Source: Oscillospiraceae bacterium (GTDB taxonomy: Bacteria; Bacillota; Clostridia; Oscillospirales; Acutalibacteraceae). From it: 64,000 nt of DNA. Location: positions 1 to 64,000 of the forward strand of contig SVPP01000006.1 in NCBI GenBank assembly GCA_015065765.1, given 5' to 3'. Under the pieces are notes generated by a model. That model was not told where the DNA came from and ran no database searches. It saw only the letters and a list, made by a program, of their open reading frames with translations. Made by a program: the position numbers and the translations under genes. This document shows, one piece after another, positions 18,940-28,500 of this stretch. Within the stretch, counting starts at the first letter, position 1. Each line of letters starts with the position of its first letter.

Positions 18940-19015
18940 CCGGGTGTGGCGCAGCTGGTAGCGCGCTTGACTGGGGGTCAAGAGGCCGTGAGTTCAAGTC
19001 TCGCCACTCGGACCA
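18940..19015 (+). tRNA. tRNA-Pro, anticodon GGG, CCA encoded
   Basis: Acceptor CCGGGTG pairs with CACTCGG (one G-U). D-arm region GGCGCAGCTGGTAGCGC, anticodon stem CTTGA/TCAAG around a loop carrying GGG, T-arm GTGAGTTCAAGTCTCGC, discriminator A, and CCA in the genome. Its 3' end from 18993 is part of the attachment duplication, so the element restores an intact tRNA. Confidence 0.95.
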
Positions 19016-19069
19016 TCTGAAAGAGTCTGAAAACGTTGATTTATCAAGGTTTTCAGGCTTTTTTATTTT
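18993..19069 (+). repeat. Left attachment site (attL), tRNA-Pro 3' end plus terminator
   Basis: The first 25 bases (TTCAAGTCTCGCCACTCGGA...) and the last 50 are identical to 28211-28287, with two mismatches at 19018-19019. Divergence begins exactly at 19070. Confidence 0.9.
19027..19069 (+). terminator. tRNA-Pro terminator
   Basis: CTGAAAAC and GTTTTCAG form an 8-bp stem around GTTGATTTATCAAG, followed by GCTTTTTTATTTT. It is duplicated within the right attachment site. Confidence 0.85.
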
Positions 19070-19085
19070 GCCACAAAACACAAAA

Positions 19086-19107
19086 TGGTCCTTATTTGGT
19101 CCTTATT
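19086..19107 (+). repeat. Left subterminal pair of TGGTCCTTATT
   Basis: Two exact head-to-tail copies of an 11-mer, 17 bp inside the left att repeat. The identical pair occurs at 28074-28095. Candidate integrase arm-type sites. A 19-bp palindrome (ACGAGCAAA-A-TTTGCTCGT, 19123-19141) lies 15 bp further in. Confidence 0.7.
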
Positions 19108-19267: not shown

Positions 19268-20128
19268 ATGAATTTATCTTTCTTTAAAATAAAAAAACGA
19301 AAAACTACTCGTCCAATCAAAGAAAAAAATAATCTAAAATTTTTTGAATCAAAATTGCAAATTATAGTCTCAATCTTGACAATTCTTGGTATAAGCATAG
19401 CCTCAACCACAGGTTTTGTCATTGAGCGTTTACCTTGTGTACAACGAAATATTGCAGAAAAAAATGTTGAAAAAATCAAAGTAACCGAAAGCAAAGAATA
19501 TATTGAAAGTATACTTGGATTGCCACAACAAACAACAGAAATCGAGTACACAGATAGCAAACAAAAAACTACATCTGGCAAAAAAAGCATTTTCATTAAC
19601 GAATATTACACGTTCATAATTTATTTCGATGAATCCAATAGTTGCATCGGATATTTTTTAATTAGTAACGATGATGATTTTTCTCCCAAACTGCATCGCG
19701 GCAAAAACTTATTCGATTTAAGCATTTCCGAATCAGGAATAGATAATATGGGATTTCTTTCAGCAATGGGACATTTTGCAAATAATCGACCTGATTGTTC
19801 TTCTTTTCACATTCAGTATTATACACACCACATTTCTTTAAATGGTTGTTATGTAGGTGTGGGAATTTCAACTTTAGGTGAAATTGATAAAGATAGAACA
19901 CAAGCTTTGATTGATTATTCACCTCATTGGATTAATGGCTACTCTGTCACAACAGACGATAATAAAAATAGAATGGAAACGCTTGGAGACAACTTTGCAA
20001 AGATGAAGCCCAATGTTTTTTCTGTATTTTTAGCAAACGATACATATGATGTCGATGAATTATTAAGCAGAGAACTACAACTGTGCTTATCTGCAACCCA
20101 TATTGACTTGCGCATATTATCAGAATAA
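19268..20128 (+). CDS. Membrane-anchored protein of the element, possibly ETEC_3214-like
   Basis: 286 residues. A basic N-terminus (KIKKRKTTRPIKEKNN) precedes one membrane segment (about residues 32-55, LQIIVSILTILGISIASTTGF). The rest is a soluble domain with EYIESILGLPQQTTEIEY, FINEYYTFIIYFD, GYFLISND and a later mixed alpha/beta part. The layout recalls NCBI's ETEC_3214-domain proteins, but that is from memory and uncertain. ATG 19268 was picked because GGGAGG lies 7 bases before it. It lies between attL and the recombination genes and is transcribed toward a shared terminator. Whether it works with the TIR proteins is unknown. Confidence 0.65.
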   Translation: MNLSFFKIKKRKTTRPIKEKNNLKFFESKLQIIVSILTILGISIASTTGFVIERLPCVQRNIAEKNVEKIKVTESKEYIESILGLPQQTTEIEYTDSKQKTTSGKKSIFINEYYTFIIYFDESNSCIGYFLISNDDDFSPKLHRGKNLFDLSISESGIDNMGFLSAMGHFANNRPDCSSFHIQYYTHHISLNGCYVGVGISTLGEIDKDRTQALIDYSPHWINGYSVTTDDNKNRMETLGDNFAKMKPNVFSVFLANDTYDVDELLSRELQLCLSATHIDLRILSE

Positions 20129-20133
20129 AAATT

Positions 20134-20183
20134 AGTAAACCCCGAAAACTCTTTTTCACAAGAATTTTCGGGGTTTACTTTTT
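20134..20183. terminator. Bidirectional terminator between the membrane protein and xis
   Basis: AGTAAACCCCGAAAA pairs perfectly with TTTTCGGGGTTTACT (20134-20179), then TTTTTG. The A-rich left flank lets it also serve the convergent excisionase gene. Related hairpins are at 39159-39195 and 50744-50778. Confidence 0.8.
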
Positions 20184-20193
20184 GCTTTCAATA

Positions 20194-20394
20194 TTAAATT
20201 TTGTTTTTTCCTGATAAATAGGCATAAAGATTCTCCATATCAATTAACGCTTTATTCCCTATGTCAACAGCGGGAATTTTGTTTTCCTTAACCAGTCTGC
20301 GAAGACCTCTTTCTGTGAGGGCTGTTTTGCTGTCATAATCTTTTATTTCTTTGATTGCCTCTTTTATTGTGCGCATTTTAGGGCCGCCAGGCAT
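20194..20394 (-). CDS. Excisionase-like small HTH protein
   Basis: 66 residues. MRTIKEAIKEIK...TALTERGLRRLVKENKIPAVDIGNKALIDMENLYAYLSG has the winged-helix pattern of excisionase/MerR-like DNA-binding proteins. GGAGG lies 7 bases before ATG 20394. It is divergent from the integrase, as is usual for Xis/Int pairs, and would steer excision of the element. Longer in-frame starts up to 20475 would run through the integrase promoter and are unlikely. Confidence 0.7.
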   Translation of the reverse strand: MPGGPKMRTIKEAIKEIKDYDSKTALTERGLRRLVKENKIPAVDIGNKALIDMENLYAYLSGKNKI

Positions 20395-20415
20395 TTTACC
20401 ACCTCCTTTTTTGTG

Positions 20416-20456
20416 AACGTTGCCACGTTGACTTAAGTTATTTCTTGAGTTATAAT
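20416..20456 (+). promoter_or_regulatory. Integrase promoter with overlapping AACGT dyad
   Basis: TTGACT (20428-20433), 17-bp spacer, TATAAT (20451-20456). An AACGT-TGCC-ACGTT dyad (20416-20429) touches the -35 box and lies between the two divergent genes, so it could be an operator for Xis or another regulator. Confidence 0.55.
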
Positions 20457-20498
20457 ATAAACGGAAACCGAACAAATGTACGTTTTCCGAAATATTTT

Positions 20499-20996
20499 AT
20501 GAAAGAAGTTGATTTTATAGGAAGATACGAAAAACGCGGAAAAGGATACCGCCTGAAAGTTTATAACGGTTATGACGCCAACCACAATCAGATTGTGGAA
20601 ACAAAAACATGGATTCCTGATTCGGGTATGACCGAAAAACAAATTATCAAAGAAGTAGAGCGTCAACTCGTCTTGTTTGAAGAAGAAGTAAAAAACGGAT
20701 CTTATGTCTCTGCAAATGTAAAATTTGAAGTAATGGCAGAAAAATTTCTTGAACAAGCTTCTCTTGAAGGAAATCTCAAACAACTCACACTCGAACGCCT
20801 TAAAGACTGCAGAGAAAGAACATACAAAGCTATAGGACACATGAGGCTCGACCGTATCACAACTGCTCATATTCAGAATTTTATAAACAGCCTCGCACAG
20901 GACGGAGCCAACAAACAAACCGGTAAAAAACTTTCAACAAAAACGCAGAAAGCCTTCTTTAACGAGTTCGTGATAAAGCTCTGTTGCAAGAACTGA
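20499..20996 (+). pseudogene. Tyrosine integrase, N-terminal fragment (catalytic domain lost)
   Basis: ATG 20499 begins KEVDFIGRYEKRGKGYRLKVYNGYD, an arm-binding domain typical of Tn916-like integrases, followed by a SAM-like core-binding domain (FEVMAEKFLEQASLEG...TYKAIGHMRLDRITTAHIQNFINSL...GKKLSTKTQ). Homology stops near 20945, where the DNA becomes the reverse strand of a TIR gene, and translation runs 15 or so junk codons to a stop. The R-H-R-Y catalytic domain is absent, so the protein cannot recombine DNA. A start further upstream (TTG 20445) is excluded because it precedes the promoter's start site. Confidence 0.85.
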
Positions 20997-21518
20997 ATCA
21001 GGTGTTCTTCTGCCGTTTGAATCAGTTTCTTTATAGCAGATGAACACATCAAAAGGCTCTTCTTTCTGTGAAATTTCAAGAATACCTTTCTGTATTTCAT
21101 CAATTGCTTTTGCTTCTGATTCGTAAACATCTTTCTGCAAAGCATCGGCATATTTTATTGCAGATTTGTAGTCTTCATCCATGAAAACAGAAGTAAACTG
21201 TGCACGGTTGACTGTAGGCACTCGTTTGTGACTTGTAGGGTCTTCCACATATTCAATACCATATCTGCACAATACAATTGACCAATAGCTTTCTGCATCA
21301 GTCTTGTCCTCGTTAAGTATGTTTTCATAAATTGACATTGCCTTGTCGAATTCATTGTTTCTGCGGAAATGGTTTGCCCTGTCATAAAGATTTGCTTTAC
21401 GCTCATCTCCAAGTTTCGGCAGAGTCTGTTTTGTGCCGCAGTATTCGCACTCTGCTACAGTTTTATTGTCGTTAATTTCAAGTGAGCCACCGCACATTTT
21501 ACATTTAAATATAGCCAT
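20934..21518 (-). pseudogene. Third zinc-ribbon/TIR paralog, truncated inside the TIR domain
   Basis: About 188 genuine residues: zinc ribbon (CKMCGG...CEYCG), TPR-like helices (NLYDRANHFRRNNEFDKAMSIYENIL), then the start of the TIR domain (EEPFDVFICYKETDSNGRRTPDSVLATELYHELVKEGF). Both intact paralogs continue KVFFARITLED at this point, but here LRFC-stop follows, read from integrase DNA. Everything after the second TIR helix, including the conserved Glu, is lost. Last in the TIR operon, 17 bp after the 1133-aa gene. It is more diverged than the other two copies are from each other. Confidence 0.85.
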
Positions 21519-21535
21519 GATTTTCCCCTCGCAAA

Positions 21536-24500
21536 TTAATAATCTTTCTCTTTACCGCAAGAACTGCATTTTTTAGTGAATAAGCCTTTGAAAGTGCCAC
21601 CGCAATGCTGACAAAGTCCCTGCGCGCGACGATTACTTCTGCATCTTTCCATTTCTTTTCTTTCTTCTTCTCTCTTCTTTCTTTCTTCTTCCTGACGCCT
21701 TTCTTCAGCTTTTTTAGCTTCGTCAATTGCTTTACGCTTCTCGTCCCAATTATAAATATTATCAAAGAGTTTCCATGCCTGAGCATCTCTCAGTGTTTCA
21801 TTATGTTCTCCACTAACGGTAACCGTTCCATCTGTTTTCAAATATATACCATACTCAACCTCAATTCCATTTATATTGATATCGCCAATCAGTTTCTCGC
21901 TATAGAAAGTTCCATCTACTTTAAAAAAGACCGGAAATCTTTCATATGAACTTATACAATTCAAACGCACCGCAACAACATCCTGAAGATCCTCTTTTTT
22001 ATTTTTCATAATTAGATTGCTGACAATCTCACCATTTTCCTTACATCCAAAAATATAATCACCTTCAGCATAAATTGCTGCAATATTCCTCCAACCATGG
22101 ACAAAGTTTTTTAAGTTGGTTTTGGAACCGCTAATATCGCTAATTTCGATAACTTTTACAGTACCGTTTTTTCTTAAAGCAGCTAAAAATCTCCGACCCA
22201 AACAGATATCAACAATATTTTCTAAACTATTTATTTCTTTTATATAACTATCATATTTTTTGAATTTTTTACCGGCATAAAGAACTGTACCATCAGATTT
22301 CAAACCTATCGTGTATTGCGAGCCTGCAGAAACTGCAACTATATCCTTCCAGTCTGATACATCGCATTTACCGTAATCATTATCGCCAACAGCCACAACT
22401 GTACCATCTGACTTCAAGCCAACTGTATGATAATATCCTGTGCTTACGGCAACTATATCTCTCCATTTTCCTATATTGCATTGGCCATATTCATTGTCAC
22501 CTACTGCCACAACGGTGCCATCAATATTAACGCCCACCATATGAGACCCATAATCAGCACTAACCAAACTTTTTGCCCTTTTGATAGCTTTCAATACAGT
22601 CTCTTTTTTATCTATTCTTACTCTGATCTTTTGTAAAATTTCTTTTGGAACATTTGTACCTGTGTGACTTTCATATATCTTTATTCTTTTTTCTAAAATT
22701 TCTTCAGATAATGATTTTTCAATTTCCTGCAATTCCCATGGAGTTTCTTCAGATTCTCTTTTTCTTCTTTTTTCTTCAACCTCTTTTTCAAAATTTTCAA
22801 TATCATCAAATACTTTTATGCCTTTATATGCATAAAGTGAATCTGAATCTGTAGAAATGATTGTACCATCCGTTTTAAGCCCTATAGTTTCTTCCCCTTT
22901 CAAATACACTGCTATAATGTTCTTCCATTCTTTTACATTACATTGACCTTCTTTATTTCTGCCTACAGCAACAACTGTGCCGTCTGATTTCAGCCCTACG
23001 ATGTGAGCATACGCCGTTGACACTGCAATAATATCCTTCCAGTCTTCTACATTATATTGACCGTCGTCATTTTTACCTGTCAAAACAACTGTGCCATCTC
23101 TTTTGATACCTATTACAGTGTTACCTGTAGCTGCAATCGTCACAACATCTTTCCAATCAGAAACATTGCATTGACCATAATAGTTGTTACCGACTGCCAC
23201 CACTGTTCCGTCCTTTTTAAGACCTACGGTTAGATTTGTTAATGCTAAAACAGAAATAATATCTTTCCAATCTGAAATATCGCATTGTCCATCATGATTT
23301 TGTCCGACAGCTACTACAGTTCCGTCTTTTTTCAGACCTACTGTATGAGAACTGCTTGTATCTACCGAAACAATATCTGTCCAATCCGATACATTACACT
23401 GGCCATGCACGTTATTTCCGCAAGCCAGTACAGTTCCATCCGATTTCACACCAACAATGTGATTACTGCAAGAAATGCTTACAATATCTGTCCAAAGCTC
23501 AAACTCTCCGCCTGTGCCACTAACACCATCAAATGTAACAGTGCCATCTGTCATAAGCATAACACCATTTGACACTTCTTTGACAGATTTGCCTGACCAA
23601 CACTTATTTCTGTATGTACCGTCAGATTTCACTCCGATACTATCACCTAAAAACTCTTTAACTTTTTTGTGATATAATAAAATTTGGGATTTTTTCAAAT
23701 CATCTGCTTCTCGTAAAAATTGATAGCTTTTGTCGGCTTTTTCTTTAACAGCTTCCAAACGATTCTTTTCTTCGCCCGTTGCTATTTTTAAAGCTCGCAT
23801 GAAATCATTGTCTGCATTCAGATCAACTGTTATGTTTTCCAATTCACCTAAAGAAGACAATCTTAAACGACACAAAGTTTTACCAGCATAGGCCATTGCA
23901 TCCATTGGGTTTTCATCAAGAGCTTTTTCAAAATATTCGTTTGCTTTCTCGTACTCTTTGTCTTCAAGGTAAAAATATCCGCGTGTTGTCAATGTACCGC
24001 TCGCAGATTTTACTTCTGCAACAGTATTTGCATTGGCCGTGTTTACGCCCACAATTTTCTCAACACCTCTTGTTAAATCCTGCATGAAGCCGATTTTGCT
24101 CATGTCCTGTGCCTGAAGTGCTTTGAATTCGTCGGGCAAATCATATGCATCCATATCTTTATAGCAAGGAATGATAATCTTTGACTTATCCTTTAACACA
24201 AGTTTCAGGAATCGTGACCATTCATTTTTAACCCACACTGCGTGGAAATGCTCATATTTTGTACCAACAACAAGCATTACTTTCGCACTGTTGAGTGCCG
24301 CAAAGATATAAGGCTCATACATCTGTCCAAGCTTATCTTCAAGTGTGATTCTTGCAAAGAAAACCTTCATTCCTTTTGCAGTAAGTGAATCGTAAATATC
24401 CTGTGCAAGGACACTGTCAATTGTTCTTTCACCTTTGTCGTCTGTTTCTTTATAGCAAATGAAAACATCATAGGGCTTTTCGTTCTTACTGATGGACAGA

Positions 24501-24937
24501 ATCTCCTCCATGATTCGGTCAACTTCTCTTGCCTCATCACGATAAACCTTCTGTGCTACAACATCAGCGTATTCCATTGCCATGTTGAAATTTTCGTCAG
24601 ATGACAATTTTTCAAATGATGCACGATGGCATGTGGGGATTTTCTTTGCAGTTACAGGGTCATCCACATATTCAATACCGTAATTACAAAGACAAAGTCC
24701 CCAGTATGCTTCCGCTTCTTCAGGAAACTCTGCAATAATATTTTCGTAGATGCCTGCTGCCTTGTCGAATTCACTGTTCAGACGAAGCCTGTTTGCTCTG
24801 TTGAAAAGATTTACTTTCTTTTCACTGTCAAGTACAGGCACTGTCTGTGTTGTACCGCAATATTCACATTCTATAACATTAACATCGGTTTCGATATTAA
24901 GATCTCCACCGCACATTTTACATTTAAAAATAGCCAT
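21536..24937 (-). CDS. Zinc-ribbon / TIR / RCC1-repeat protein, 1133 aa
   Basis: Order of parts: zinc ribbon C6, C9, C24, C27; TPR-like helices 45-145; TIR domain about 155-295 (PYDVFICYKETD, RITLEDKLGQMYEPYIFAAL, VWVKNEWSRF with E239 at the place of the TIR NADase glutamate); another TPR unit 317-350; a first run of RCC1-like repeats about 430-715 built on GLKSDGTVVAVG and GQCNVSDWKDI; a helical insertion 725-815; a second RCC1 run about 820-1050; a charged coiled coil rich in E and R; and a C-terminal zinc ribbon (CQHCGG...CSSCG). No signal peptide. TIR domains in bacteria often degrade NAD or make signal nucleotides on sensing phage. The beta-propeller could be the sensor. The activity here is inferred. 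Confidence 0.88.
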   Translation of the reverse strand: MAIFKCKMCGGDLNIETDVNVIECEYCGTTQTVPVLDSEKKVNLFNRANRLRLNSEFDKAAGIYENIIAEFPEEAEAYWGLCLCNYGIEYVDDPVTAKKIPTCHRASFEKLSSDENFNMAMEYADVVAQKVYRDEAREVDRIMEEILSISKNEKPYDVFICYKETDDKGERTIDSVLAQDIYDSLTAKGMKVFFARITLEDKLGQMYEPYIFAALNSAKVMLVVGTKYEHFHAVWVKNEWSRFLKLVLKDKSKIIIPCYKDMDAYDLPDEFKALQAQDMSKIGFMQDLTRGVEKIVGVNTANANTVAEVKSASGTLTTRGYFYLEDKEYEKANEYFEKALDENPMDAMAYAGKTLCRLRLSSLGELENITVDLNADNDFMRALKIATGEEKNRLEAVKEKADKSYQFLREADDLKKSQILLYHKKVKEFLGDSIGVKSDGTYRNKCWSGKSVKEVSNGVMLMTDGTVTFDGVSGTGGEFELWTDIVSISCSNHIVGVKSDGTVLACGNNVHGQCNVSDWTDIVSVDTSSSHTVGLKKDGTVVAVGQNHDGQCDISDWKDIISVLALTNLTVGLKKDGTVVAVGNNYYGQCNVSDWKDVVTIAATGNTVIGIKRDGTVVLTGKNDDGQYNVEDWKDIIAVSTAYAHIVGLKSDGTVVAVGRNKEGQCNVKEWKNIIAVYLKGEETIGLKTDGTIISTDSDSLYAYKGIKVFDDIENFEKEVEEKRRKRESEETPWELQEIEKSLSEEILEKRIKIYESHTGTNVPKEILQKIRVRIDKKETVLKAIKRAKSLVSADYGSHMVGVNIDGTVVAVGDNEYGQCNIGKWRDIVAVSTGYYHTVGLKSDGTVVAVGDNDYGKCDVSDWKDIVAVSAGSQYTIGLKSDGTVLYAGKKFKKYDSYIKEINSLENIVDICLGRRFLAALRKNGTVKVIEISDISGSKTNLKNFVHGWRNIAAIYAEGDYIFGCKENGEIVSNLIMKNKKEDLQDVVAVRLNCISSYERFPVFFKVDGTFYSEKLIGDININGIEVEYGIYLKTDGTVTVSGEHNETLRDAQAWKLFDNIYNWDEKRKAIDEAKKAEERRQEEERKKREEERKEMERCRSNRRAQGLCQHCGGTFKGLFTKKCSSCGKEKDY

Positions 24938-24954
24938 TATTATAACCTCACAAA

Positions 24955-27675
24955 TTAATAATCTTTCTCTTTACCGCAAGAACTGCATTTTTTAGTGAAT
25001 AAGCCTTTGAAAATGCCACCGCAATGCTGACAAAGTCCCTGCGCGCGACGATTACTTCTGCGTCTTTCCATTTCTTTTCTTTCTTCTTCTCTCTGTCTTC
25101 TTTCCTCTTCTTCTCTCTGTCTTCTTTCTTCAACCTGGCGCGCTTCTGCCATCCTAAGTTTTTCCGAAAGTATTTTATGCTCTTCATCCCAATTATAAAT
25201 ATTATCAAAAAGTATCCATTTTTTAGCTTCCGGGAAAAATTTGCATTCAATTGTTCCATTCTTTCTCAGTTGAACAGATGACTTAGTGGCAATAACATCA
25301 CTGGGAATGGTTTTGTCAAACAAGCCAACCCTCTCACCATCGTTTTTCAAGCCTGTAATAACTTGCAATTCCAGAAGTGCAATAATGTCGTCCCATTTCT
25401 TAAAATCATCATATGTACTATACTTTCCTTTAACTACCACTCTTCCTTCTTTTGTCAAACATGCCAATGCGTCTGGAAGAGCAAAAATTGATTTAATATT
25501 TTTAGGACACCATTGATATAGATAATCAATAAGATTGAATTTTACTGGTTGTATTTGCCATGTTCTATTAGCCGAAGCCGCTGTATAAACTTTTCCGTCA
25601 GCAGATAATGCCGCAAAGAAATAATCGCCTGAACTAATCTGAACAATGTTCTCCCACGTCTCAACACATGGCTGATAAAAAGACATATCTCTGTCCATTT
25701 TTTTGTCATGGGTAACAACAACTTTTCCGTTAGACATAAGACCCATAGTATGATATTTCGTTGTAGCTATAGAAATAATATTCTTCCATTCACTAACATC
25801 ATTTTGACTATAATCATTATCTTTATCATTAACATTAGTGGATACCACTCTTCCATCTGATTGCAAGCCAACTGTATGATACTCATTTGTACTTACTTCA
25901 ATAATATCTCTCCATTTTTCCACATGACAAGCTTCATCCTGTGCATTCTCACCAGTTGCCAAAACAGTACCATCAACTTTCACAGCTATTAAACGTTTAT
26001 TTCCATAGCAACTGAATAATTTTTTTGCCGTATTAACCGCTTTAATCAACTGTGCATTTTCCTCTTTCTTTGATTCAATAATAGCCTGTCTTTCTTCAAT
26101 TAGTTGCTCACAACGCAAAAGAAGTTCATCCGCATCTTTCCAGCCTGAAATTTTTTCAAGTAATTCTTTTGCCTCAAAATATTGTGACAATTCCGTTTGA
26201 TTCATTTTGTTTTCAGCCTCAAAACGAATCTTTTCTTTCGGCATATCATCAAATTTTTCTTTACATTCTTTTGCAAGTTCTTCAGAATCCAGATATCCAC
26301 CTAAAGATTCAAAAAGGTTCCTCGCTCTTTCATATGTTTTTGCTGCATACTGAATATAAAATGGATCTTTCTTTTCTTTATCAGCTTTTCTAATAAAACT
26401 TGTAGCGTTTTCGTATTTCTTTTCTATTTGTTCACATTGTCTTGAAAAACCAAAAATTAATTTTCTTTTATCCGCTTTTTCTTTAATTGATTCTAAATGA
26501 TTTTTTTCTTCACCTTCTGCAACTCGAATAGCGCGCATAAAGTCTTTATCTGCATCCAGATCAACTATTATATTTTCCAATTCATCTAAAGAAGACAGTC
26601 TCAAGCGAAGCAATGTTTTACCAACGTAAGCCATTGCATCCAACGGATTTTCATCAAGAGCTTTTTCAAAATATTCGTTCGCTTTCTCGTACTCTTTGTC
26701 TTCAAGGTAAAAATATCCGCGTGTTGTCAAAGCACCGCTTGTATTTTTTGTTTCGGCAACAGAATTTCCACCGGATGCAACAACTCCGATAATTTTCTCA
26801 ATACCTCTTACCAAATCCTGCATGAAGCCGATTTTGCCCATATCCTGTGCCTGAAGTGCTTTGAATTCATCAGGCATATCGTATGCATCCATATCTTTAT
26901 AGCAAGGGATAAGAACCTTTGATTTGTCCTTCGCCATAAGTTTCAGGAATCTTGACCACTCATTTTTAACCCACACTGCATGGAAATACTCGTATTTTGT
27001 GCCGACAGAAAGTAACACCTTTGCGCTGTTGAGTGCTGCAAAAATGTAAGGTTCATACATCTGACCAAGTTTATCTTCAAGTGTGATTCTTGCGAAGAAT
27101 ACTTTCATCCCTTTTGCAGTGAGTGAATCGTAAATATCCTGTGCAAGGACACTGTCGATTGTTCTTTCGCCCTTATCATCTGTTTCTTTGTAGCAGATAA
27201 AAACGTCATACGGCTTTTCGTTCTTGCTGATTGACAGAATTTCATCCATAATGCGGTCAATTTCTCTTGCTTCATCACGATAAATCTTCTGCGCAACAAC
27301 ATCAGCATATTCCATTGCCATTTTGAAATTTTCATCAGATGACAATTTTTCAAATGATGCTCGGTGACATGTGGGAATTTTCTTCGCCGTTGCAGGGTCA
27401 TCCACATATTCTATACCGTAATTGCAAAGGCAAAGTCCCCAATATGCCTCTGCCTCTTCGGGAAACTCTGCAATAATATTTTCATAGATGCCTGCCGCTT
27501 TGTCAAATTCACTGTTCAGACGAAGCCTGTTTGCTCTATTGAAAAGATTTACTTTCTTTTCACTGTCAAGTGCAGGCACTGTCTGAGTTGTTCCGCAGTA
27601 TTCGCATTCTACAACATTAACATCAGCTTCAATATTCAGGTCTCCGCCGCACATTTTACATTTAAAAATAGCCAT
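24955..27675 (-). CDS. Zinc-ribbon / TIR / helical-repeat / RCC1 protein, 906 aa
   Basis: Same plan as its neighbour: zinc ribbon at C6, C9, C24, C27; TPR-like helices; TIR at about 155-295 with E239 in VWVKNEWSRF. The first 395 residues are near-identical to the 1133-aa paralog, as are the last 50 (coiled coil plus CQHCGG...CSSCG ribbon). Between them the proteins diverge: this one has two helical repeats (LGGYLDSEELAKEC and ISGWKDADELLLRC, about 395-560) and a shorter, more degenerate RCC1-like region (about 565-860). It follows the RHH regulator by 22 bp and precedes the 1133-aa gene by 17 bp. Function is unknown; a NAD-consuming or signalling effector with a variable sensor is the inference. 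Confidence 0.88.
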   Translation of the reverse strand: MAIFKCKMCGGDLNIEADVNVVECEYCGTTQTVPALDSEKKVNLFNRANRLRLNSEFDKAAGIYENIIAEFPEEAEAYWGLCLCNYGIEYVDDPATAKKIPTCHRASFEKLSSDENFKMAMEYADVVAQKIYRDEAREIDRIMDEILSISKNEKPYDVFICYKETDDKGERTIDSVLAQDIYDSLTAKGMKVFFARITLEDKLGQMYEPYIFAALNSAKVLLSVGTKYEYFHAVWVKNEWSRFLKLMAKDKSKVLIPCYKDMDAYDMPDEFKALQAQDMGKIGFMQDLVRGIEKIIGVVASGGNSVAETKNTSGALTTRGYFYLEDKEYEKANEYFEKALDENPLDAMAYVGKTLLRLRLSSLDELENIIVDLDADKDFMRAIRVAEGEEKNHLESIKEKADKRKLIFGFSRQCEQIEKKYENATSFIRKADKEKKDPFYIQYAAKTYERARNLFESLGGYLDSEELAKECKEKFDDMPKEKIRFEAENKMNQTELSQYFEAKELLEKISGWKDADELLLRCEQLIEERQAIIESKKEENAQLIKAVNTAKKLFSCYGNKRLIAVKVDGTVLATGENAQDEACHVEKWRDIIEVSTNEYHTVGLQSDGRVVSTNVNDKDNDYSQNDVSEWKNIISIATTKYHTMGLMSNGKVVVTHDKKMDRDMSFYQPCVETWENIVQISSGDYFFAALSADGKVYTAASANRTWQIQPVKFNLIDYLYQWCPKNIKSIFALPDALACLTKEGRVVVKGKYSTYDDFKKWDDIIALLELQVITGLKNDGERVGLFDKTIPSDVIATKSSVQLRKNGTIECKFFPEAKKWILFDNIYNWDEEHKILSEKLRMAEARQVEERRQREEEERRQREEERKEMERRRSNRRAQGLCQHCGGIFKGLFTKKCSSCGKEKDY

Positions 27676-27697
27676 GATTTTCCCTCACAGAATATGT

Positions 27698-27883
27698 TTA
27701 TTTAATTTCAAGATTATCTACAGAAAATTCTATGAATTTCTGTATGATTTCATTTCTCGTCCTTCCCGTTGTTGTTGCTATTTCATCAACAACAGAAATC
27801 AACTCATTAGGTAAGCGAACAGAAACCACAGAAGAATCGCCTCTGAATTTTCTTGAAGAAATTGTCAGTTTTTTGTGCTCCAT
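27698..27883 (-). CDS. Ribbon-helix-helix (CopG/Arc-type) regulator
   Basis: 61 residues. SSVVSVRLPNELISVVDEIATTTGRTRNEIIQKFIEFSVDN is a clear RHH fold: one beta strand (VVSVRLP) and two helices. AGGAGG precedes the ATG. It is first in the TIR operon and probably autoregulates it from the inverted repeat at 27915-27948. It could alternatively be an antitoxin-like protein, but no small toxin gene is adjacent. Confidence 0.85.
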   Translation of the reverse strand: MEHKKLTISSRKFRGDSSVVSVRLPNELISVVDEIATTTGRTRNEIIQKFIEFSVDNLEIK

Positions 27884-27914
27884 CCGACACTCCTCCTTAT
27901 AAATTTACAATATA

Positions 27915-27949
27915 TGACAATTATATTACATTTGTAGTTTGATTGTCAA
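27915..27949 (-). promoter_or_regulatory. Promoter and candidate RHH operator of the TIR operon
   Basis: Minus-strand TTGACA (27944-27949) and TATAAT (27920-27925) with an 18-bp spacer. TGACAAT (27915-27921) and ATTGTCA (27942-27948) are perfect inverted copies, one over each promoter box, a layout suited to repression. Confidence 0.65.
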
Positions 27950-28073
27950 TAAGAATATAGTTTTTACATATATTTTTACGTATAAAAGAAAATGCAGAAA
28001 AACCTAAAAATAAAGTCTTTCTGCTTTTGCTGTCTGTAAATCCTCATAACTACATCATGAAGATAACAAATTC

Positions 28074-28095
28074 TGGTCCTTATTTGGTCCTTATT
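28074..28095 (+). repeat. Right subterminal pair of TGGTCCTTATT
   Basis: Two exact tandem copies identical to and in the same orientation as 19086-19107, 115 bp inside the right att repeat. The surrounding 27950-28210 has no convincing gene. It also holds a GCAGAAA/TTTCTGC hairpin (27994-28024) with a TTTT tail. Confidence 0.7.
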
Positions 28096-28210
28096 TTTAT
28101 GAAAACACATGTTAAAACGTGCAAACATATGAAAAATTGAAGATCAAGAAACGCCCATTTACTGCGCTTTATGACGTGATGTGCAACATTTCGCGAAGCG
28201 TTCTTAAGTT

Positions 28211-28287
28211 TTCAAGTCTCGCCACTCGGACCATCGAAAAGAGTCTGAAAACGTTGATTTATCAAGGTTTTCAGGCTTTTTTATTTT
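28211..28287 (+). repeat. Right attachment site (attR)
   Basis: Copy of the tRNA-Pro 3' end (20 bases plus CCA) and the complete tRNA terminator, matching 18993-19069 except at 28236-28237. No tRNA 5' part precedes it. Confidence 0.9.
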
Positions 28288-28385
28288 ATCAAAGCACCAT
28301 GTGCTCTTTATTTTGGTCTAATTTAATAAACTTTAGCAACACAGACGATTACCTTTTTCTCTCACTTGTTTCGATAAAAATAATA

Positions 28386-28414
28386 TTGATTGTTTCAAAA
28401 TTAATTGTTATAAT
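28386..28414 (+). promoter_or_regulatory. Promoter of the GH28-like gene
   Basis: TTGATT (28386-28391), 17-bp spacer, TATAAT (28409-28414), with an 86-nt leader. Nothing else is recognised in 28288-28500. Confidence 0.6.
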
Positions 28415-28500
28415 GAAATCTGATAATAAATAAAAAACTTTACAGGCCGGACTGCACAGATAATTCAGCACGAAATTGACCATTGCGAGGGGATATTGAT

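Follow-up and report, generated by a model that had tools for sequence, protein, structure and literature searches.

The 9.2-kb element inserted at the 3' end of the tRNA-Pro(GGG) gene in this gut Clostridia genome has in all likelihood undergone one internal deletion, which cut both its integrase gene and its third TIR gene (TIR3) and left it immobile by itself. We put the probability of this reading at roughly 80%. Within the window, i.e., the whole stretch of 64,000 nucleotides that was analysed, the genes of the element follow each other in the order ETEC_3214-domain gene, excisionase-like gene, integrase fragment, TIR3 fragment, two intact TIR-RCC1 genes and ribbon-helix-helix gene (Table 1).

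Table 1 Features of the tRNA-Pro element and its borders (window coordinates; a point in the strand column means that no strand applies).
Feature	Position	Strand	Basis
tRNA-Pro (GGG), integration target, 3' end within attL	18940..19015	+	ARAGORN
attL, 77-bp direct repeat with tRNA 3' end and terminator	18993..19069	.	97% identical to 28211-28287, spacing 9218
Left terminal repeat GGTCCTTATTTGGTCCTTATT, putative arm-type integrase site	19087..19107	+	exact 21-mer, two copies in window
Cargo gene, ETEC_3214 domain	19268..20128	+	NF043066, 36.0 bits, cut-off 35
Excisionase-like DNA-binding protein (ORF; first ATG internal)	20194..20475	-	TIGR01764, 22.1 bits, below cut-off of 28.8
Integrase 5' fragment, N-terminal part and SAM-like core-binding domain	20499..20951	+	homologue alignment, Pfam
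Deletion junction	20949..20952	.	2-3 bp ambiguity
TIR3 5' fragment: N-terminal cysteine motif, TPR-like part, start of TIR	20952..21518	-	alignment to G002 TIR protein
TIR2, intact, 1133 aa, TPR + TIR + RCC1 repeats	21536..24937	-	Pfam
TIR1, intact, 906 aa, TPR + TIR + RCC1 repeats	24955..27675	-	Pfam
Ribbon-helix-helix (CopG-type) regulator, 61 aa	27698..27883	-	PF01402
Right terminal repeat, identical to 19087-19107	28075..28095	+	exact 21-mer
attR, copy of tRNA-Pro 3' end and terminator	28211..28287	.	97% repeat; like right end in G004:C79

The break point was located by a DNA search in which window positions 20100-28100 served as the query against seven genomes of the genus. Positions 20134-20951 match contig C25 of G004, a metagenome-assembled genome of the same genus from water deer rectum (RGIG9132), with 95% DNA identity, and positions 20950-21537 match contig C6 of G002 with 87% DNA identity. 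The two alignments are independent, stem from different genomes and meet at 20950/20951 with an overlap of 2 bp. This is not chance. The junction lies at 20949-20951, and the partners share at most 2-3 bp there. It was not seen in any other genome of the genus in this search, and an exact copy was not present in viral_contigs. The integrase and TIR3 genes are convergent and, past the junction, each frame continues for a few codons in the antisense DNA of the other, such that the integrase ORF stops at 20996 and the TIR3 ORF at 20934. The original prediction had described an integrase that reads normally to STKTQ and an opposing TIR gene that reads normally to LVKEGF, each then entering the DNA of the other. 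This description proved accurate, as the frame from 20499 on the plus strand reads through KLSTKTQK, the frame from 21518 on the minus strand reads through ELVKEG(F), and both end in antisense. The same prediction placed the break near 20945; a single shared break point was indeed found, but its true position is six bases further to the right.

Alignment to the intact homologue from G004, which comprises 399 residues from the homologous methionine and is 96% identical over the 150 residues compared, shows that about 151 of 399 integrase residues remain, corresponding to a loss of at least about 0.75 kb. The whole or most of the SAM-like core-binding domain is kept (PF14659, 24.9 bits, cut-off 22.6), while the catalytic domain PF00589 with its R, HxxR and Y residues is absent from the window integrase in the Pfam search and present in the intact homologue (81.3 bits). 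Intact homologues of about 400 residues occur in G004, L080 and other relatives. Comparison with solved tyrosine integrases ('Int protein', 6emy/6emz; 'Integrase', 3nkh) gave a match of the intact G004 protein to 6emy over both the core-binding and the catalytic domain (E 2.4e-12), whereas the window copy keeps none of the latter. The frame of the fragment is open and has no defect other than the break. A search of the own genome with the C-terminal part yielded only matches of 22-31% identity. Contig C17 carries integrase fragments that might have represented the lost half, but these were dismissed because of their identity of only 25-27%.

The remnant of TIR3 amounts to about 189 of the 565 residues of the intact TIR protein from G002 (570 residues as an ORF), with 92% identity over 190 residues. 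Two thirds of the protein are gone, a loss of at least about 1.1 kb that includes the rest of the TIR domain and the conserved VKNEWSRF segment, where the catalytic glutamate of the domain would be expected. The fragment gave no Pfam match and thus does not hold a complete TIR domain; in the G002 homologue PF13676 covers residues 163-286 of the 570-residue ORF, and the fragment ends near the second strand of this domain. When the own genome was searched with the missing C-terminal part, only TIR1 and TIR2 were found. The G002 homologue scored 29.6 bits with the model for Thoeris type III ThcB4 (NF058526), below its cut-off of 220.

Both sides of the junction are enclosed by common borders, which are new evidence beyond the first reading of this DNA. 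The 77-bp direct repeats are read as attL and attR, and the 21-bp repeats just inside them, for which 0 copies are expected by chance and no further copies occur in the window even when 3 mismatches are allowed, are putative arm-type integrase sites. The right end of the element recurs on G004 contig C79 (93% over 28094-28293). Since the junction is bracketed by both borders, its two sides are parts of a single 9.2-kb element, and this speaks for an internal deletion rather than a chimeric contig. A chimera, in which two pieces of DNA, perhaps strain variants of the same element, were misjoined at 20951 by the assembler, nevertheless has to be considered because the own genome is a fragmented assembly (43 contigs, 85.81% complete), because contigs of relatives often stop beside this integrase (G004:C25, L080) and because two contigs of G091 end inside a TIR gene; these contig ends indicate that regions of this kind assemble badly. 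Against it stand not only the matching att sites and terminal repeats, but also the 2-3 bp shared at the join, which are far below any assembly overlap, and the absence of either missing half elsewhere in the own assembly. We therefore regard an assembly error as unlikely and infer a real deletion in the DNA of the cell, along with its size and the resulting loss of function. An inversion or translocation with one end in each of the two convergent genes would likewise cut both at one point, the ends being split apart and the other halves joined elsewhere; however, the own genome (85.8% complete) contains neither such a C-terminal integrase part nor a C-terminal part of TIR3, and we hold this course of events to be very improbable. 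A single internal deletion fits best with one break point of 2-3 bp ambiguity, halves that are absent from the assembly, and common att borders. The same facts support the original claim that one deletion or rearrangement took the catalytic domain of the integrase together with the C-terminal part of the TIR protein.

On the basis of these comparisons, the following sequence of events is proposed. An integrative element would have used its own integrase, a tyrosine recombinase, to enter the 3' end of tRNA-Pro(GGG). At a later time, a single internal deletion with a microhomology of at most 2-3 bp would have taken out all DNA from codon ~151 of the integrase gene to codon ~189 of the convergent TIR3 gene, i.e., at least about 1.9 kb in comparison with intact relatives plus anything that lay between. 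Devoid of its whole catalytic domain, the integrase should drive neither excision nor reintegration, and the remnant, with its att sites at either end and two intact TIR-RCC1 genes between them, would stay in the chromosome as a cargo island.

It had also been suggested that an intact relative of the element be found and the DNA between the break points mapped. This succeeded in part: an intact integrase (G004) and an intact TIR protein (G002) were found separately, but an intact element with both integrase and TIR3 was not found among 148 relatives, genome_contigs and viral_contigs, and the DNA between the breaks was not mappable. For this reason, we can only infer the ancestral arrangement with an intact integrase and TIR3 in one element. 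The element of G004 carries its 96% identical integrase at the same tRNA-Pro and has left and right ends as in the window element, but in place of the TIR genes a convergent recombinase-like gene follows the integrase, and no TIR homologue was found in the G004 genome. In L080, a metagenome-assembled genome from goat colon, the integrase is 66% identical and adjoins tRNA-Pro(CGG). Contig G004:C25 ends 0.55 kb and the L080 contig 0.94 kb past the integrase. The gene convergent to the integrase encodes a SAM-like integrase domain in both genomes (PF02899, PF13495 weakly, as seen in the L080 copy). Such recombinase-like genes are located at 11020-11535 in L076 and at 11220-12143 in L080, where both contigs end inside the gene, and the part limited by the contig had no match to PF00589. 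Homologues of the convergent gene are also close to further integrase genes in the own genome (C15, C19), which makes it a candidate for the removed DNA; judged from this gene content, the deletion may also have taken a convergent recombinase-like gene here.

Single pairwise estimates between the window and G004 gave a dN of 0.020 and a dS of 0.155 for the integrase fragment, a dS of 0.151 for the excisionase-like gene and a dS of 0.67 for chromosomal serA. As the values for the integrase and excisionase-like genes are far below that for serA, the integrase module probably passed between the two lineages after they had split. The break itself is probably recent, as suggested by the otherwise open and little changed frame of the integrase fragment. 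Intact frames in both fragments and low pairwise dN/dS values with relatives (0.13 for the integrase, 0.07 for TIR3) would also be compatible with a fusion kept for function, in which excision is blocked by an integrase stub that still binds the att sites, or the TIR proteins encoded next to the TIR3 fragment are modulated by it. These ratios, however, stem from comparisons with intact homologues and are for the most part a record of selection that preceded the break, the junction occurs in no relative, and a recent break predicts the same pattern, so that we give this idea hardly any credence. Just as far-fetched appears the related notion that the deletion was favoured because it fixed the TIR-RCC1 pair in the chromosome, with the overlapping, opposed fragments still expressed as regulators, one being an att-binding integrase stub by which excision in trans is prevented, the other a truncated TIR protein acting as partner.

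The ETEC_3214-domain gene between attL and the excisionase-like gene is missing at the same place in G004, where only about 20 bp separate the DNA aligned up to 19107 from that aligned from 20134 onwards, and therefore looks like separately acquired cargo. The excisionase-like gene adjoins the integrase also in relatives L080-L084 and L100. TIR1 and TIR2, arranged in tandem at 21536-27675, combine an N-terminal cysteine motif with TPR, TIR and RCC1 repeats and matched no curated defence family above its cut-off. TIR proteins of a similar kind are present in many relatives of the order, with up to seven matches in one genome. For a TIR protein of an amoeba, RCC1 repeats are mentioned in one paper (PMC13142454). 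ORF inspection and Pfam searches revealed no relaxase or conjugation gene in the window element.

Outside the element, to the right of attR, homology to G002 resumes at 28288-28483 in the last codons of a peptide-deformylase-like gene. In G002 and G004, sbcD-sbcC are situated between tRNA-Pro/attR and the peptide-deformylase-like stretch; they are not found there in the window, and the sole sbcC homologue of the own genome (53%) is on contig C43. A second loss or rearrangement thus seems to abut attR. A degenerate copy (68%) of the terminal-repeat region is present just outside attR at 28293-28323, perhaps left over from the end of an earlier element that occupied this site.

The expectation that the element is stranded holds only in cis, where the catalytic domain has been lost. 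Since att sites, terminal repeats and the excisionase-like gene remain, the element could still serve as a substrate for a related, intact integrase entering the cell and might be excised by it. Rescue by the other integrases encoded in the own genome appears unlikely because of their low identity to the lost part. We consider the element a clear-cut example of TIR cargo on an integrative element that has only just lost its integrase; its borders, its break point and intact congeneric homologues are all known. Should the reads confirm it, it could illustrate the way in which cargo islands are fixed. Note that such deletions are common and that no view of the field is changed.

Cis-mobilizable elements (CIMEs) have decayed from ICEs or IMEs (PMC5704250, PMC7563491). 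The window element resembles them in that attL and attR are kept 9218 bp apart, that the integration function was lost by deletion (with no cognate copy elsewhere in the assembly) while the cargo was retained, and that it sits at the 3' end of a tRNA gene, where by analogy a related element that enters this site could, in principle, mobilize it. It differs from them in having no trace of a relaxase or conjugation gene, which leaves descent from an ICE or IME unproven, and in still possessing an integrase remnant and an excisionase-like gene. The elements of G004 and L080 run off their contigs 0.5-0.9 kb past the integrase. The window element thus works like a CIME or a decayed genomic island, membership in the former class being unproven as no relaxase was seen and the contigs of the relatives end too early. 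With genomic islands at tRNA genes it shares the tyrosine integrase beside the tRNA, the second copy of the tRNA 3' end at the distal border and the broken integrase, and there is no essential difference. The event is of an ordinary, common kind and of low novelty, with the distinction that congeners here allow the break point and the two lost halves to be located.
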